From Oceanospirillales bacterium (GTDB taxonomy: Bacteria > Pseudomonadota > Gammaproteobacteria > Xanthomonadales > SZUA-36): 33,079 nt of DNA. Numbering within the stretch: the first letter of the stretch is position 1; every line of letters begins with the position of its first letter. The notes beneath the pieces were generated by a model that worked only from the letters and a program-made list of their open reading frames with translations, had not been told where the DNA came from and made no database searches. This document shows, in pieces, positions 16,576 through 24,832 of the stretch. The translations under genes and the position numbers were made by a program. Location: the NCBI GenBank assembly GCA_003233115.1, contig QIKV01000116.1, forward strand, positions 1 through 33,079. The letters run 5' to 3'.

Positions 16576-16749
16576 TGAAAATACTCCAGAAAAAATACTT
16601 ACACCGCTCTCATTAGAAATACCAAGCCAACTGCGCAAACAATGACGTTACCGCATAAATGCACTGCTCAGGCTGCAGGCTATCACAGGCACCTCAATCG
16701 TGTTGTGCACATTAACTTCTGTTTAACGCCAGGCAAGTATTATTCAGGC

Positions 16750-17499
16750 ATGGGGAATGATTTTCAGGCTTCCAACCAAACGTTTGCACCGGCAAGCGTG
16801 AGGTCCAAACCCGGTATATGGCTGGCGCTGGCTATCGCGCTCGGGCTGCACCTGAGCATCCTGCTGCTACCGCTACCCGGGCAGGTGCCAGACAGCAGGC
16901 CCGTAGCAGCGCAAATTGAATTGCGTTTGACCTCGCCTGGGCTAAAGCTAAAGCGGCCGCGCGAGCGAGCCCCCCTACCTGACGGTCTGCCGACCCCTGC
17001 GCCCTCCCCTGCAACCGGGGGTGAAAAGCCCGTATCACTACCGTTGGCGAAAACACCTTCAAAAACGGTGCTACCAGTTTCGCCTGACGCTGCGTCGGCC
17101 CCGTTCGAGCGTGACCTGGAACATGTGGATCCACAGGAAAGAGCACGGCTCACGCGTGCCATCTTGAGCAGTCCGTTCATCACCGAGGAGTCCGCCACAG
17201 ACCAGCTTTTTGGCCAACCAACTGAGCAGTACAGCACCAAAGCCCGGCAAAAATCTCATGCCAGGGAATTTCATATTCCGGACCAACAGAACCTGCTTGC
17301 CATGCTGGATAAACCGATGCAGGAATTACCTTTTGAGTACACGCCCGGCCTCATTCGCTTCGCCTACGAGCCCGGTATCAAGGGCAAACTGCAACGGTTC
17401 GGCGATAAGATCACACCCGAGTTTGGCTGGATCACCCGGTACGGCACCGAAGTAAGGTGTATCTGGGTGCTGATCATCGCAGCGTGCGGGTGGAAATAG
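16750..17499 (+). CDS. TonB-N-terminus-like membrane-anchored protein of unknown function
   Basis: This 249-residue protein has a short cytoplasmic tail and one transmembrane helix (about residues 22-42, with GLHLSILLLPLP). A proline- and lysine-rich stretch follows (about 63-117), the layout of TonB-like energy transducers. The usual TonB C-terminal domain is absent. Instead a periplasmic segment of about 130 residues ends in ITPEFGWITRYGTEVRCIW and a hydrophobic tail with a second cysteine. I do not recognise this end. The start is uncertain: ATG 16750 lacks a good ribosome site, and the frame stays open upstream to 16642. It diverges from the acyl-CoA dehydrogenase. The large lipoprotein gene follows after 168 bases, and the two may act together in the periplasm. 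Confidence 0.75.
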   Translation: MGNDFQASNQTFAPASVRSKPGIWLALAIALGLHLSILLLPLPGQVPDSRPVAAQIELRLTSPGLKLKRPRERAPLPDGLPTPAPSPATGGEKPVSLPLAKTPSKTVLPVSPDAASAPFERDLEHVDPQERARLTRAILSSPFITEESATDQLFGQPTEQYSTKARQKSHAREFHIPDQQNLLAMLDKPMQELPFEYTPGLIRFAYEPGIKGKLQRFGDKITPEFGWITRYGTEVRCIWVLIIAACGWK

Positions 17500-17667: not shown

Positions 17668-19926
17668 ATGCGAAATATGTTGATGCGCCTTATTTTCCTG
17701 GCTGTGGCCTCGCAACTGATTTATAGCTGCGCAACCATTCAGCCAGACGGCTTGGCTGCCAGCCAGGCTTCACTGCAGAAACAGCGTACTGCCAGTGCCG
17801 GGCTCGCTTTGTCCGGGTTGGCTGAAATCGATGCACTGGTCAAACTGGACAACCAGCGACTGGCCCGGCAGATAGTTGCCAGGCTTAAAGCGCAAGCCCT
17901 GTCAACAGGCGACTTTTATTTCCGTCAACTCAAAGTAAGCTTCGGCCAGCAATTTATAGCCTTGCGATCGACAGTAGATATTGCAGATAACACCGGCAAT
18001 GTTATTGCCGCTTCAGTTGTCGGCGACATATTGCTGGACTACACCGGCAAACGGCTGGAATGGTTTCCGTTTTTTAATCGGCTGCAAATTAACGCTGCCA
18101 ATTTTACTTTTGAGGGAAAATCTTACGCTGAAGCCAGTCCGGAACTGACCCGATTGGTCTTGCAACGCCTGAACACCGGCATCACAACTGCATTGGTGCT
18201 GCAGGACAACAATACCATTCCCCTTGATGCGGTGCCCCTGGCCAAGATAGAAGTCGGTGCATCCCTGCCGGGCCTGGGCAATGCTTCAGCCAGCCACTCA
18301 CAAGCACTCAATGGCGTGTTCGTAGTAGCGGGAAGCGCGGTATTGATTGAAGCTGATACCACCACCATTGCGCTCGACATGAATTTTATTCCGGATCTGT
18401 CAACCTGTCCCGCTGACATTGAAGTGTCAAGAGCAGTGTTTGCCCGCGACATCAAATCACGGGAGCCTGTCGGCCTGGCGCGTAATATGACCAGTCCGGA
18501 AAACCTGCGTTATTTCTATTCAGAAATTTCAGGTGCAAAACGGCCCATGACCATCATCCATTACTGGTTTGCGGATGGTCAGCCAATCGCCGTCGAAGAA
18601 CTGGCAGTCGGCCCCAGCGAGCGCTGGAGAACATGGTCTTCAATAGGTCGTACCATCACCGGGGCCTCGCACTGGGAGGTGCTGGTGGTTGAAAAAGAAT
18701 CAGGCTGTATTCTGTACTCCCAAACGGTGCGCACGCTGGTGGCAAAGGGCGCTGATTCGCAAACTGACAAAGCATTCACCAACCAGACTTTTGCGGCACT
18801 GCGCAGTGAATTCAATGCCAGAACCGCCAACTTCTCCATCGGCGATGAAGACCCGCAGATTGCCCTGATCGAGATCAGGCGCTCCTTTCTGCAGGGTGTG
18901 TTCAAGGCATCCATGGCTGATTTGCACATTGAAGCTGAGTTCGATCAGAGTGCCCTGGCACAACTGCAGTTTGCCGCTCAGATGCTGCCTTTTGAAACCC
19001 GGGACATTACCTGCGAACAACGTAGCTGCCCTTCCCCCAACCAATGTACCGCGTCCCTCGTGCAATGCAGACGACTCAGGGATACACGTGATTGTTCATC
19101 CTGCCTTTTTTACAATCCACTGAATAATCGTTGTGTCAGTCAGGCGATCGACCCAATTTGTGAGGCGGCACGCAACCGTCAGAATAACAAGTATGAGGCC
19201 GACCAAAATGCCTGTATTACAAATTTGGCAACCGAAAAAGCTGATTGTGAGCAACTGAACGCCCAAGCGGCGCGCAGTTGCGAAATAGAATCCGACGTCG
19301 AAGTATCTGCCTGTGAACGGGTCAAGACCGGCATGGAAACGCTAACGGCACTTGCCGGGGTTAGCGCAGATACAAAAAACCGCGGTAGACTCAGCGCAGT
19401 CTTTTCCAGATTCAGGATCGAGGATGATTTTTCCCGCCTCAAACTGGATATGGCGCTGAAATCCGACCTTGAAATTACCGGTAAGCTGAAATTCACGCCC
19501 GGCAATATCCCGGCACCACTGAAAACCTGCATTAGTGCCTGGAGCGCACCGTTCGCCAGTCGCGCGGTTGCAGTGGCCTCAGCAGACAGCATACTGGCCA
19601 GCATGGAAATAGGCAAAGCAACCCTGACCGCAAACTGGTCGGGGTTCGTCATGCCACTTGCCATGACGCCTTCACCATTGGAGTCGGTATTCGTAAATAA
19701 CCCGCAACTGCTGGCCAGGTGCGGGATTGGATTGACAGTCAAAAAAGTAGAACAGGCCATTGCCGGCGATGATGCAGAGTTTTTTTCCGGACAAATGGAG
19801 CTGGAAGTTCAGCCACTGCCGACCAGGATAAGGTTCTCTCCAGCCACCATCGTTTATGGCGGCCACCGCTATCACGCCGGGGCGGTGCTGGGTGCTAATT
19901 ACCTGAGGTACGATATCGGCAAATGA
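17668..19926 (+). CDS. Large lipoprotein with DUF2914-like domain and cysteine stalk
   Basis: The 752-residue protein starts at ATG 17668 with a lipoprotein signal (LIYSC, Cys21). Residues 50-245 are alternating beta strands and helices that recall lipid-binding TULIP-like domains (my inference). Residues 250-357 match DUF2914: HYWFADGQPI, then ERWRTWSS, then TGASHWEVLVV. Residues 449-549 hold twelve cysteines. The last four (516, 527, 538, 549) are spaced exactly eleven apart in a charged, helical stretch. Residues 573-752 are another beta-rich region. DUF2914 usually occurs in much smaller proteins, so this is a rare arrangement. The TonB-like gene lies directly upstream on the same strand. 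An alternative TTG start at 17635 would add 11 residues. It probably faces the periplasm, anchored in a membrane. Function unknown. Confidence 0.83.
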   Translation: MRNMLMRLIFLAVASQLIYSCATIQPDGLAASQASLQKQRTASAGLALSGLAEIDALVKLDNQRLARQIVARLKAQALSTGDFYFRQLKVSFGQQFIALRSTVDIADNTGNVIAASVVGDILLDYTGKRLEWFPFFNRLQINAANFTFEGKSYAEASPELTRLVLQRLNTGITTALVLQDNNTIPLDAVPLAKIEVGASLPGLGNASASHSQALNGVFVVAGSAVLIEADTTTIALDMNFIPDLSTCPADIEVSRAVFARDIKSREPVGLARNMTSPENLRYFYSEISGAKRPMTIIHYWFADGQPIAVEELAVGPSERWRTWSSIGRTITGASHWEVLVVEKESGCILYSQTVRTLVAKGADSQTDKAFTNQTFAALRSEFNARTANFSIGDEDPQIALIEIRRSFLQGVFKASMADLHIEAEFDQSALAQLQFAAQMLPFETRDITCEQRSCPSPNQCTASLVQCRRLRDTRDCSSCLFYNPLNNRCVSQAIDPICEAARNRQNNKYEADQNACITNLATEKADCEQLNAQAARSCEIESDVEVSACERVKTGMETLTALAGVSADTKNRGRLSAVFSRFRIEDDFSRLKLDMALKSDLEITGKLKFTPGNIPAPLKTCISAWSAPFASRAVAVASADSILASMEIGKATLTANWSGFVMPLAMTPSPLESVFVNNPQLLARCGIGLTVKKVEQAIAGDDAEFFSGQMELEVQPLPTRIRFSPATIVYGGHRYHAGAVLGANYLRYDIGK

Positions 19927-20343
19927 CCCCCGGGACTTGAGCTTTCCCGTACATGTGGTCAACTCAGACAGAGCATCACCGCAAAATCATCCTGACAGTG
20001 CGGTGACGATACTCTCTCCGGCTGGCTGGAAGAGCCCCGAATGGTTCCATGTTAATATCCTTGCAACATGGGTAATCCGGTTCCGGCTCTACTACCAGCC
20101 GCCTGCCTGCCATCCTCTCAGGTTTCTTCGCCACCCGTTAAAGGTCAGAATCCGGCAATCAGGGTCTATCTGGATCTTAGTTTGCCCAAGGCATCAGCAA
20201 GGGAAAAACTGAGTATGGTAAACCAAAGACCACGGCACAATGATAGTCCACACGACTTAACAGATAATGAAACAAACATGAACGCAAGTTAAATTTTTGA
20301 TGAAATATCAGGCACCTGAATCCAACGCCATCAGGAGTAAAAT
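19927..20343. other. Gene-free stretch between converging genes
   Basis: No convincing gene lies in these 417 bases. Short open frames (for example 20068-20292, + strand) have no ribosome site and no recognisable motif. A 7-base inverted repeat (CCATGTT at 20047-20053 with AACATGG at 20065-20071) has no T tract after it. CGGGA/TCCCG near 19931-19949 is a weak hairpin that could help end the lipoprotein transcript. The region may hold a decayed gene or a small RNA, but nothing shows this directly. Confidence 0.5.
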
Positions 20344-21024
20344 TTAACCCTTGATATTCAGACGGTAACCCAGGCCCCGGACTGTTTCGATCATTGAATC
20401 TTCAGACTGGCGATCAATCTTTTTACGTAGTTTACCGATATAAACATCGACAACATTGGTCAGAGGATCCATGTTCAGCCCCCAGACATTGCTGAGTATG
20501 CGTTCCCTGCTAAACAGGGTGCCCGGTTTACTCATCAGCAATTCGATGATTGCAAGTTCCTTGGCCGTCATCTTCACGCTATTTCCGCCCACGGAAAAAC
20601 GCAGCGACTGGCGGTCGAATTCCAGCGGACCGGCCCTGATGGGCTGTACTTCGCCGCTAATGGCGGAGCTTCTGCGCATTATCGTCTCGATACGCGCGAG
20701 TAACTCTTCAAAAGAGAACGGCTTGGTGAGGTAGTCATCAGCGCCCATGCGCAGGCCGGCAATCACATCCTCAAGGCTGTCCATGGCTGACAGGATGATC
20801 AAGGGCGTATTGATCTTGTTCATACGCAACTGCTGGCATACTTCATGACCGTGTATTCCAGGCAGCATCAGATCCAGCAACAACAGGTCAAAGTCGCCTT
20901 CAAGCGCCAGTGACAAACCGGATTCGCCGTCATTTGCAACAACACAGAAGTGGCCCTCTGCCCGCAGACCACGCTCCAGGAAATCCGCTATTCGTGCTTC
21001 GTCCTCGACGATCAATATTCTCAT
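20344..21024 (-). CDS. OmpR-family response regulator
   Basis: This 226-residue two-domain regulator has a receiver domain with Glu7/Asp8, phospho-acceptor Asp51 in LLLLDLMLPG, Ser79 and Lys101 in KPFSFEEL. The C-terminal winged-helix domain has KELAIIELLMSKPGTLFSRE and ends with RKKIDRQSEDSMIETVRGLGYRL. The winged helix binds DNA as a dimer after phosphorylation. Its start overlaps the histidine kinase stop (ATGA at 21021-21024), so the two are translated together, with the kinase first. Target genes are unknown. The diverging lipid kinase and the apyrase operon are neighbours but need not be controlled by it. Confidence 0.96.
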   Translation of the reverse strand: MRILIVEDEARIADFLERGLRAEGHFCVVANDGESGLSLALEGDFDLLLLDLMLPGIHGHEVCQQLRMNKINTPLIILSAMDSLEDVIAGLRMGADDYLTKPFSFEELLARIETIMRRSSAISGEVQPIRAGPLEFDRQSLRFSVGGNSVKMTAKELAIIELLMSKPGTLFSRERILSNVWGLNMDPLTNVVDVYIGKLRKKIDRQSEDSMIETVRGLGYRLNIKG

Positions 21025-22622
21025 GCCACCGCCTTAAGTTTGTCTTCAGCAGGCAAAACAACGGTTGCTATTGCACCCTCTCCCCGCTCACCTTCGAGGC
21101 TGATGCTACCTTTATGTGCCTCAACGATCGCCTTGGCAACCGGCAGGCCAAGACCGGTACCGTGGGCATGCCCCTGGGCTTGCCCACCCCGGAAAAACCG
21201 CTGAAACGCTTGCCGGGCCTCCTCTTTAGTCAGACCGATACCATTGTCGCGAACCGTCACAATCACTTCGCTGTCCGCTCTTGCAAGGCCCACTTCAACG
21301 CTGTCACCCGGTTCGGAGTATTGCAGTGCATTGTCAATCAGGATAGCAAAAACCTGGCGCAAGCGACCGGCATCGCCCATGACCACGGAGCTCTCATCGG
21401 CAAACGACTGAATCAGTGTAACCTCGCTTTTCTCAGCTTTGGCAGCAAAATCACTACAAACCGGAGCCAGCAAACTGCCGACGGAAACCGGACGCACTTT
21501 CAGGCGCGGTTCACCTGCATCCGCCCTGACCATAAACAACAGGTCATCGACCAGGCGGGTAGTCTGGTCAGTCTGTTCAATGATCCGCGCCAGCACTTCC
21601 CTGTATTCCCCCTCAGTTTTCTCCCTGCCGCGCATGGCAATTTCCGCTTCACCACGAATCACGGTCAGTGGCGTGCGAAATTCGTGACTGATATCAGCCA
21701 GCAATTTGCGCCGGTTTTCATCCACCATAGCCAGCATATCATTACTGCTTTTCAAGGCACGTGTACGTTCATCAACCACCGCCTCCAGGCGCACGTTCGA
21801 ATCGTGCATAGCGGTACGGTGGTCGGCCAGTTCATGTGCCATGGTATTGAAGGCTTTCCCCAGGTGCTCGAATTCCTTTTCCCGCAACTCCGGAATGCGG
21901 TGCGTCAGGTCACCGCCGGTAAAGGCCCGTACGCCGTCGTACAGAACGCTGACAGAGCGGGTCAGACTGCGTGAAAATAGCCACACAACCAGCCCGGTGA
22001 GACCTGCCAGCGCCCACATAAACCACGGCAGTACACCGGTAATATAGCGTGACAGGGAAATGGCCTCCGCATTGGCATCAGCAACTTTCTTGGAATTGGC
22101 CGCCAGCGTCTCATCCATTAATACGCTAAACAATTCCACGATCCCTTCGCTGTGTAGTGCCTCCGCTTCGGTGCGTGCCACTTCGATATTTCCTGCCTCC
22201 AGTGCCAGCCTGATCGTTTCACCAGAACCAATGATGGTTTCGACCTGGTTCTCCAACTCATCGATGTCTTCAATTTCGCGGGTATCAATTTCAGCACTCC
22301 GCAGCGCTTTTTCATCCGCAATCGCTTGTCTGATTTGGGCGAATGTGACACGTAAGTCGCGGATATTCTCCTGCCATTGCGACAAATTCCCAACGGCGCC
22401 CAGGGCCACACTTTCCTGGATAAGGGCGAGCTTCCTTTCGGTCTGTACCGATAACACGCGATGGCCGTTCAACACAGAGTTGGCCAGGGCTATACGCTCC
22501 ACGTCATATTCAAACCACTGAACGCTGTCATAAAAATACCACGCCAACGCCAGTGCAATCGCAAGCATCGCTGCAAAAGCCATGTGCAATTTTCGGCTGA
22601 ATCGTGTTTTCATTGCGATCAT
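21021..22622 (-). CDS. Sensor histidine kinase
   Basis: This 533-residue inner-membrane kinase has transmembrane helices near residues 11-31 and 196-216, flanking a mostly helical periplasmic sensor of about 165 residues. A HAMP linker follows (about 217-270). The dimerisation domain has ADISHEFRTPLT (phospho-His313). The ATP-binding domain carries N431 (IDNALQYS), DNGIG at 459-463 and GTGLGLPVAKAIVEAHKG from 488. Dense acidic residues and even helical spacing suggest a four-helix-bundle sensor, but the ligand is unknown. It phosphorylates the response regulator encoded next. Translation begins at ATG 22622 or at 22613. Neither has a clear ribosome site. The gene diverges from the lipid kinase across about 140 bases. 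Confidence 0.95.
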   Translation of the reverse strand: MIAMKTRFSRKLHMAFAAMLAIALALAWYFYDSVQWFEYDVERIALANSVLNGHRVLSVQTERKLALIQESVALGAVGNLSQWQENIRDLRVTFAQIRQAIADEKALRSAEIDTREIEDIDELENQVETIIGSGETIRLALEAGNIEVARTEAEALHSEGIVELFSVLMDETLAANSKKVADANAEAISLSRYITGVLPWFMWALAGLTGLVVWLFSRSLTRSVSVLYDGVRAFTGGDLTHRIPELREKEFEHLGKAFNTMAHELADHRTAMHDSNVRLEAVVDERTRALKSSNDMLAMVDENRRKLLADISHEFRTPLTVIRGEAEIAMRGREKTEGEYREVLARIIEQTDQTTRLVDDLLFMVRADAGEPRLKVRPVSVGSLLAPVCSDFAAKAEKSEVTLIQSFADESSVVMGDAGRLRQVFAILIDNALQYSEPGDSVEVGLARADSEVIVTVRDNGIGLTKEEARQAFQRFFRGGQAQGHAHGTGLGLPVAKAIVEAHKGSISLEGERGEGAIATVVLPAEDKLKAVA

Positions 22623-23668: not shown

Positions 23669-24832
23669 TCACTCCACACAGCCAGTGCCGGACCACTGAC
23701 ATTCCGGTGATCCGGCTTTCGCCAGGCAGTCGTTGACTGTGCATATCACAGCCCCCAGTGTCCAGTCCACATCACTGAGTGCAGAACTCACCGGTACGCC
23801 CAGGGAATTCAGGAAAAACGGTTGGTACACGGCACGAAAACACGAGCTTCCGGGTTGGAACCCGCTGTCGGTATTGTTGCGGCAATAATCGTCAATATCA
23901 GAAGATTCAGCGTAGCCGAATGCGCCTGCCAGATACCAGCGACGCACATCCGCCTGACTGACCGACTCTCTGAGCGCCTGCTCAATGCCTGTGGGTAACT
24001 CAATACCCTCCGTACAGTCCGAAACTTGCCATTGCGGATTTTTCCAGCCCGCCCCGCGCTGGCAGGCGGCACGCCCGGAGAGCTTCTTCCATACCTCATC
24101 CTGGCCCAACCCTGAGAAGGAATAGCTTACCAGCGGTACATCCATACCCTGCACTATCACCTGCCTTGATGCCTTGCAGTCTGAGCATGGAAAACTGATC
24201 TGTGCCGAAACACCACCCATTTCCACAATCCCAAAATTTCCATCCTCCTGCACTTCGCGCGTGGCCAGCCAGGCAAACAACCCCTCTTCAAAACCTGTCA
24301 ACGTGCGCGTGGTCACAGCCATGCCAAGTGCAGCGCTGAGTTTCCGGTTCAAACTGTCCCACAGCCATTGGGCTGCGGCCGGATACTCCCGTTCGGCCAG
24401 CCTCATACCGGCCGTTGCATAGACAGCCACTGTGTCCAGGCGGCATTGTGACTGCCAGTCAAACGCCTGCCACCTGCGACTGCCATCCTTTTGCAACGGT
24501 CCGTCGCGGCGCATACCATCCAATGCCGCGACCATGGCATCGGTCACAGCTTCGGCCTCTGCCATGGTACTTACCTGATTCCCGCGCACCGGGTCAGACA
24601 AGGCAGCCGTTTTGGGTCCGCTGTGCTGTTTCCATCCTGCTGCAGTCTGCTGGTAGATGTAGAGCCGCGTTCCCGTGCTGCCGGCGTCGTAAACAATGTG
24701 GCAGGCAACCCCATTTGCAATCTCATTCGCGGCCGCCCCGGTTGCTGAACCACCCTCATCCGGAGCCGTGGAACACGCAGCCAGCAACAGGGCAAGCACA
24801 ATAATGGGTACTTGCTTCATGTGGATACTCAC
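23669..24832 (-). CDS. GDA1/CD39-family nucleoside phosphatase (apyrase) lipoprotein
   Basis: The 387-residue protein has a lipoprotein signal (LLAAC, Cys20). Apyrase conserved regions appear in order: ACR1 DAGSTGTR at 49-56, ACR2 YATAGMR at 138-144, ACR3 TGFEEGLFAWL at 179-189 with catalytic Glu183, and ACR4 IVEMGGVSAQI at 202-212. These residues bind nucleotide phosphates and the attacking water in ecto-NTPDases, which split ATP, GTP or UDP. The protein should act in the periplasm or on the cell surface. Cysteines are numerous, consistent with an exported fold. The GTG start (24832) overlaps the upstream gene stop (GTGA at 24829-24832). ATG 24820 is an alternative that keeps the signal. This family is common in eukaryotes and rare in bacteria (Legionella is the known example). 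Activity is inferred. Confidence 0.9.
   Translation of the reverse strand: MSIHMKQVPIIVLALLLAACSTAPDEGGSATGAAANEIANGVACHIVYDAGSTGTRLYIYQQTAAGWKQHSGPKTAALSDPVRGNQVSTMAEAEAVTDAMVAALDGMRRDGPLQKDGSRRWQAFDWQSQCRLDTVAVYATAGMRLAEREYPAAAQWLWDSLNRKLSAALGMAVTTRTLTGFEEGLFAWLATREVQEDGNFGIVEMGGVSAQISFPCSDCKASRQVIVQGMDVPLVSYSFSGLGQDEVWKKLSGRAACQRGAGWKNPQWQVSDCTEGIELPTGIEQALRESVSQADVRRWYLAGAFGYAESSDIDDYCRNNTDSGFQPGSSCFRAVYQPFFLNSLGVPVSSALSDVDWTLGAVICTVNDCLAKAGSPECQWSGTGCVE

Follow-up and report, generated by a model that had tools for sequence, protein, structure and literature searches.

A conserved twelve-cysteine stretch in a probable outer-membrane lipoprotein encoded next to a kinase–regulator pair and a candidate structured RNA

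The window, as we call the whole stretch of DNA that was analysed, comprises 33,079 nucleotides of contig QIKV01000116.1 from an Oceanospirillales bacterium. On its plus strand, a gene reading from the ATG at 17668 (17668–19926) encodes a lipoprotein of 752 residues; matches were obtained in 15 further genomes of the family, the main ones at 71 to 29% identity. Facing it on the minus strand are the genes for an OmpR-type response regulator (20344–21024; PF00072 and PF00486) and a sensor histidine kinase with a HAMP domain (21021–22622; PF00512, PF00672 and PF02518), for which the first 240 residues were aligned. Between the lipoprotein and regulator genes lie an array of repeats and a structured RNA region, both described below. 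Upstream of the lipoprotein gene, a proline-rich protein with one hydrophobic stretch and no Pfam match is encoded on the plus strand (16642–17499); relatives of it are present at the locus in L069, L070 and L071 only, several of the other contigs ending short.

The lipoprotein begins with a predicted signal peptide (17668–17730) that runs up to the lipobox cysteine, Cys21, which is kept in all 12 aligned sequences possessing the N-terminal end, the pattern by which a bacterial lipoprotein is recognized. The lipobox of the window protein, IYSC, departs at position −2 from what we take to be the consensus. An alanine at position +2 would, if the Lol rule is assumed to apply, direct the protein to the outer membrane, and we consider the 752-residue protein a probable outer-membrane lipoprotein. 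Its N-terminal domain (residues 22–245; 17731–18402) has no convincing Pfam match, the best one (E 0.075) being found in one of 12 members. Comparison of this domain with DUF1439 (YceB-like) in hhalign gave a probability of 0.9 to 2.4%, using a five-row profile of which one row was in the wrong frame. The DUF2914-containing part recognized in the initial annotation is confirmed as PF11141 at residues 294–344 (18547–18699; E 3.1e-7), with 30.4 bits on the protein and 34.8 bits on the genome against a gathering cut-off of 23.6; the conserved Cys247 and Cys347 flank this domain.

The cysteine-rich stretch that follows may be divided into three parts. An arm (19012–19068) carries Cys449, Cys454, Cys460 and Cys467 and is proline-rich around residues 455–458, while a tip (19069–19158) contains Cys476, Cys479 and Cys489 and the motif NPLNNRC, which is invariant in the 16 aligned sequences. 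The third part is a probable helix (19159–19314) with Cys498, Cys516, Cys527, Cys538 and Cys549, spaced by 18, 11, 11 and 11 residues, and free of proline from 497 to 541. A C-terminal domain delimited by alignment and profile search (residues 566–752; 19363–19923) contributes the conserved Cys621 and Cys685. Besides DUF2914, no Pfam family was returned for the lipoprotein, and no NCBIfam family with an E value up to 1.

The cysteines of the window lipoprotein are located at positions 21, 247, 347, 449, 454, 460, 467, 476, 479, 489, 498, 516, 527, 538, 549, 621 and 685. Direct counting verified what had drawn attention to the protein, namely that twelve of them are within residues 449–549 (encoded at 19012–19314) and that the last four, at 516, 527, 538 and 549, are exactly eleven residues apart; the full spacing series is 5, 6, 7, 9, 3, 10, 9, 18, 11, 11, 11. 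When residues 449–549 were shuffled 20,000 times, a run of at least four cysteines at spacing 11 arose in 0.8% of the shuffles, and such a run at any of eleven chosen spacings in 8.4%. In a single sequence, the 11-residue spacing is by itself only mildly unusual, and these frequencies are what would speak for an arrangement due to chance composition and maintained by no selection. Conservation decides the matter: 14 of the 16 aligned proteins, the window protein counted, have all twelve cysteines at identical spacing, and the spacing holds down to 35% identity within the stretch. The arrangement, invariant over the alignment, is therefore not due to chance, and that reading is refuted.

The alignment excludes L002 as a duplicate and L018–L021 as fragments or repeats of included genes; the L002 locus was found by scanning contigs with patterns from the window's own peptides, and its protein is identical to that of L004. 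The two incomplete sets belong to L014, which has nine of the twelve cysteines and whose contig begins inside the gene, and to L013, which has eleven, Cys549 having gone with a deletion. The L013 gene (1164–1538 and 1450–3435) occupies two reading frames near its start and has no stretch around Cys549; it looks frameshifted, being either a decaying gene or the product of an assembly error. There is no insertion or deletion within residues 449–549 in the 14 sequences with the full set, while single relatives have up to five such events in the N-terminal part and up to three in the DUF2914 part. The pairs Cys247/Cys347 and Cys621/Cys685, one on either side of the stretch, are also conserved. L013 has one extra cysteine at aligned position 79; all others outside the aligned set precede the start or belong to the signal peptide, and the mature proteins are practically without a spare cysteine.

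When the full protein was the query, 15 of the 200 order genomes searched had a match, each belonging to the window's family; in the family itself, 16 of 39 genomes had one. In the class, 80 of 369 genomes were matched. DUF2914 proteins elsewhere in the class share with the window protein the PF11141 domain, which it contains above the curated cut-off; among the matches listed, those other than the window's fall only inside residues 213–382 around this domain. A profile of the cysteine stretch matched the window's own genome alone among the 369 class genomes, and family proteins only in 250 order and 299 phylum genomes; a further match in the phylum scan (G812, E 0.003) was rejected because of an internal stop. 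Profiles of the N-terminal and C-terminal domains found 11 of 151 and 13 of 165 order genomes, respectively, always through the same lipoproteins, and no cysteine-free relative of either end domain turned up in these genomes. The initial annotation had proposed that the 11-residue spacing be looked for in homologues, and that homologues keeping the fold without the spaced cysteines would count against it; the spacing is kept and no such homologue appeared in the 151 and 165 genomes. No carrier of the lipoprotein was found outside one family-level clade, and the viral contigs, plasmids and phages searched contained no relative of it.

Among the sequences of solved structures (PDB), nothing matched the lipoprotein below E 0.08; PDSW, FAP275 and two other entries, with E values of 0.08 to 1.4, were judged to be chance matches. 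We consider the twelve-cysteine domain real and conserved, with no described relatives in the databases and literature searched, and it is its fold and function that we infer. Its interest lies in a disulfide framework to which neither Pfam, NCBIfam nor the solved-structure sequences offer a significant match.

AlphaFold was run on residues 366–752 and on the whole protein, with an alignment of two rows (window and L002), giving a pLDDT of 31 in both cases. At this confidence the models establish no fold, nor do they confirm the second beta-rich region named in the initial annotation; the full-length one is helical at residues 496–518, 525–539 and 550–563. No proline occurs at 497–541 in any of the 16 rows, and the Chou-Fasman averages for residues 498–541 are 1.15 for helix, the highest of eight stretches compared, and 0.89 for strand. 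The proline-free run, the Chou-Fasman average and the low-confidence model agree with a helix starting at residue 498. The helical periodicity of the non-cysteine residues is not significant, with permutation p values of 0.12 for conservation and 0.34 for hydrophobicity, and a glycine at position 543, present in eight of the 16 sequences, may break the helix ahead of Cys549. On an ideal helix, Cys498, Cys516, Cys527, Cys538 and Cys549 are at angles of 0, 0, 20, 40 and 60 degrees. Cys498 precedes Cys516 by 18 residues, or five turns, so five cysteines, and not four, could share a face of the helix. The proposal that the cysteines line up on one helical face is in this way supported in part, by the conserved spacing, the proline-free run and the helix propensity, and left unsupported by the periodicity of the surrounding residues and by the AlphaFold models.

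The five helix cysteines would be at least 16.5 Å from one another on an ideal helix, a distance that no disulfide between them could span; their partners must then be the cysteines of the arm and tip. If the helix is real and the protein a single chain, five bonds connect the helix with the remaining seven cysteines, two of which then bond each other. If the probable helix has its five cysteines along one face, these could also be imagined to bond two chains into a dimeric stalk laddered by disulfides, as had been suggested at first. This arrangement we hold to be improbable: the seven further invariant cysteines of the same chain can accept all five bonds, and the hydrophobicity of the remaining residues does not repeat at the helix angle (p 0.34).

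A redox-active or metal-binding surface, the other proposal made from the sequence, is less probable still. It would draw on the CxxC at 476/479, conserved in 16 of 16 sequences, but the stretch contains neither a CxxCH motif nor an invariant histidine in the aligned proteins, and the distance between the helix cysteines, if the helix is real, prevents them from sharing one metal ion. The protein is also exported, in hosts that have DsbC. Export and an even set of invariant cysteines together favour structural disulfides. That the stretch is a structural, disulfide-bonded domain of an exported lipoprotein, with some functional tie to its locus, is a reading we rate as evenly balanced against all others.

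In the structural-disulfide reading, residues 449–467, with prolines clustered at 455–458, would form an extended proline-rich arm and residues 468–497 a tight tip, followed from 498 to about 560 by a long helix with five cysteines along one face. Intramolecular disulfides would staple the arm onto the helix, giving a rigid oxidized rod. Oxidative folding of such a domain would require isomerization of the DsbC type, and DsbC_N is present in 38 of the 39 family genomes. The simplest pairing would be an antiparallel ladder, with bonds 449–549, 454–538, 460–527 and 467–516, plus two bonds in the tip. Such a ladder needs the arm to rise by 3.3, 2.75 and 2.36 Å per residue, which is feasible for an extended chain. 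However, the length criterion used admits 119 of the 2520 possible five-plus-one pairings, one of them containing a parallel ladder, so geometry fails to single out the antiparallel one. The retention of Cys449 in L013, which has no Cys549, argues against the 449–549 rung. We put forward this exact pairing tentatively, as less likely than not. If true, a ladder of helix and arm would be a simple route to building a rigid rod.

The initial annotation knew of no described protein with such cysteines. Among the open-access PMC papers listed by literature searches, no title or abstract describes the protein, and the databases gave the stretch no significant match, but the 11-residue interval has a counterpart elsewhere: in the excerpted text of PMC12114033, mitochondrial CHCH proteins have disulfide-joined helix cysteines 10 or 11 residues apart (CX9C, CX10C). 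In contrast to the two helices and two disulfides given for CHCH proteins in that excerpt, the window protein, a bacterial lipoprotein, has one probable helix with five cysteines. Its arm, with spacings of 5, 6 and 7, is unlike CX9C or CX10C, and the protein is not of the twin CX9C type.

In all 15 loci with a regulator on the contig (the window and 14 others), the lipoprotein gene is tail-to-tail with the regulator gene, followed by the kinase gene, with a gap of 164 to 471 bases between lipoprotein and regulator. In the sixteenth locus, L081, the contig runs out 575 bases beyond the lipoprotein gene, before any regulator, with the RNA and the array still present. Lipoprotein and kinase occur together in 15 of the 39 family genomes; one, the genome with this short contig (G156), has the lipoprotein only, two have the kinase only and 21 neither (Fisher p 8e-8, kinship ignored). 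G077, from the window's genus and 97% complete, has neither. The lipoprotein remains linked to the pair where protein identity is down to 27 to 29%, whereas the remaining window genes, compared with the loci of other genera, have no match or a weak one (24 to 34% identity). The two genomes with the kinase only are G176 and G082 (loci L084 and L085), in which the kinase part is 35 and 31% identical. In G176, the 257 bases past the regulator have another reading frame there, and in G082 there are 628 bases past the regulator; no lipoprotein end, array or RNA was found in either. These genomes argue against a strict tie: they may contain the related kinase without a lipoprotein nearby, or they may contain other kinase–regulator pairs.

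The repeat array, directly past the stop of the regulator gene, consists of five direct repeats of the TTCA/TTTA type at 11-bp spacing (20250–20304, minus strand). Repeats of this kind look to us like an OmpR-family binding site, and the array, which distant relatives retain, is a candidate binding site of the regulator. The best array beats all 200 composition shuffles in 13 of 15 gaps, L074 giving a tie and L082, with its short gap, having none; a matrix built from 14 sites recovers the held-out site of L081. No second site above 13 bits was found in the window and 17 loci. That no second copy was found, including at the upstream ends of the lipoprotein and kinase genes where these are on the contig, argues that the lipoprotein is not simply another target of the array. 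At the counts chosen, no k-mer of 7 to 9 bases was common to the upstream region of the lipoprotein gene and that of the kinase gene.

The structured RNA region (20039–20236, minus strand), recognized by covariation and by matches to held-out sequences, has counterparts in L079 (10011–10206), L072 (12358–12555) and L081 (7390–7583). At its end lies a terminator-like hairpin, CACCGC..GCGGTG (19977–20005, minus strand), after which several relatives have a run of T, though the window does not clearly have one. In seven sequences, 22 of 45 base pairs are changed on both sides, a number reached in none of 500 shuffles, the structure having been derived from the same seven-sequence alignment that was used for this count. 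Slid versions of the structure have at most 11 such pairs; the count of further pair types is matched by 74 of the 500 shuffles. A covariance model of the seven sequences found the held-out L081 (E 2.8e-42), L071 (5.8e-20), L074 (1.2e-9) and L082 (3.2e-5). The matches in L073 and L075 (E 0.0014) are comparable to one on the opposite strand of L079 (0.0033), and at the loci in L076, L077 and L078 the model had no match. The gap RNA of the window and nine related loci had no Rfam match at the gathering score, two sub-threshold matches in the gap being attributed to chance. A cobalamin riboswitch recognized by Rfam in L075 (2209–2445) is unrelated to the gap RNA. The RNA is a candidate for either an independent small RNA or the 3′ part of the regulator's message. 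Over 14 sequences and with approximate shuffles, GGA motifs number 80 against 79 expected and ANGGA motifs 35 against 17.9; with ANGGA doubled and GGA unenriched, a role in binding CsrA is only a lead.

The neighbourhood of kinase, regulator and RNA suggests an envelope-signalling locus. In such a locus, an accessory envelope lipoprotein would pass a signal on to the kinase and regulator encoded convergently with it, and these would drive the RNA encoded between the genes; that the window lipoprotein acts in this manner is possible, at a probability we would call low. NlpE appears to be the best functional analogue, and none of the tests run shows the two proteins to be related; RcsF is, as we assume, the second. 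For NlpE of E. coli, loss of the C-terminal disulfide is reported to activate CpxA–CpxR, according to excerpts of a commentary (PMC6593411). NlpE is described there as a lipoprotein of the outer membrane that has conserved disulfides and is tied to a kinase–regulator pair, features that the window protein probably shares, the tie in the window being one of gene position alone. The same excerpts give NlpE five cysteines, in contrast to the twelve-cysteine stretch of the window protein, for which Pfam and NCBIfam gave no match to an NlpE family.

The signalling reading competes with one in which the lipoprotein is a structural or surface protein, its disulfides serving only for rigidity and protease resistance and its neighbours reflecting inherited gene order or joint transfer. 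The linkage kept at 27 to 29% identity, when other window genes barely match, and the co-occurrence of the lipoprotein and kinase genes in most genomes stand against a purely structural role. What speaks for it is that no direct signalling link emerged and no array was found upstream of the lipoprotein gene, that the carriers are confined to one family, and that in two genomes a related kinase stands with no such lipoprotein next to it. We give the purely structural role roughly one chance in three. A more elaborate possibility is a dedicated, undescribed envelope-sensing locus, in which the disulfide ladder would read oxidative folding or lipoprotein sorting and pass this on to its own kinase and OmpR-type regulator; the site beside the regulator gene would then drive a structured RNA, possibly one that titrates CsrA. 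This complete scheme strikes us as a long shot.

To our knowledge, no envelope-sensing circuit has been studied in the group to which the window belongs, and the linkage of kinase, regulator, array and RNA opens a possible one to study. The linked RNA may prove a more useful discovery than the cysteine domain. Elsewhere in the window, the minus strand at 23669–24832 encodes a protein with a match (E 2.7e-14) to GDA1/CD39 nucleoside phosphatases, which are more familiar from eukaryotes.
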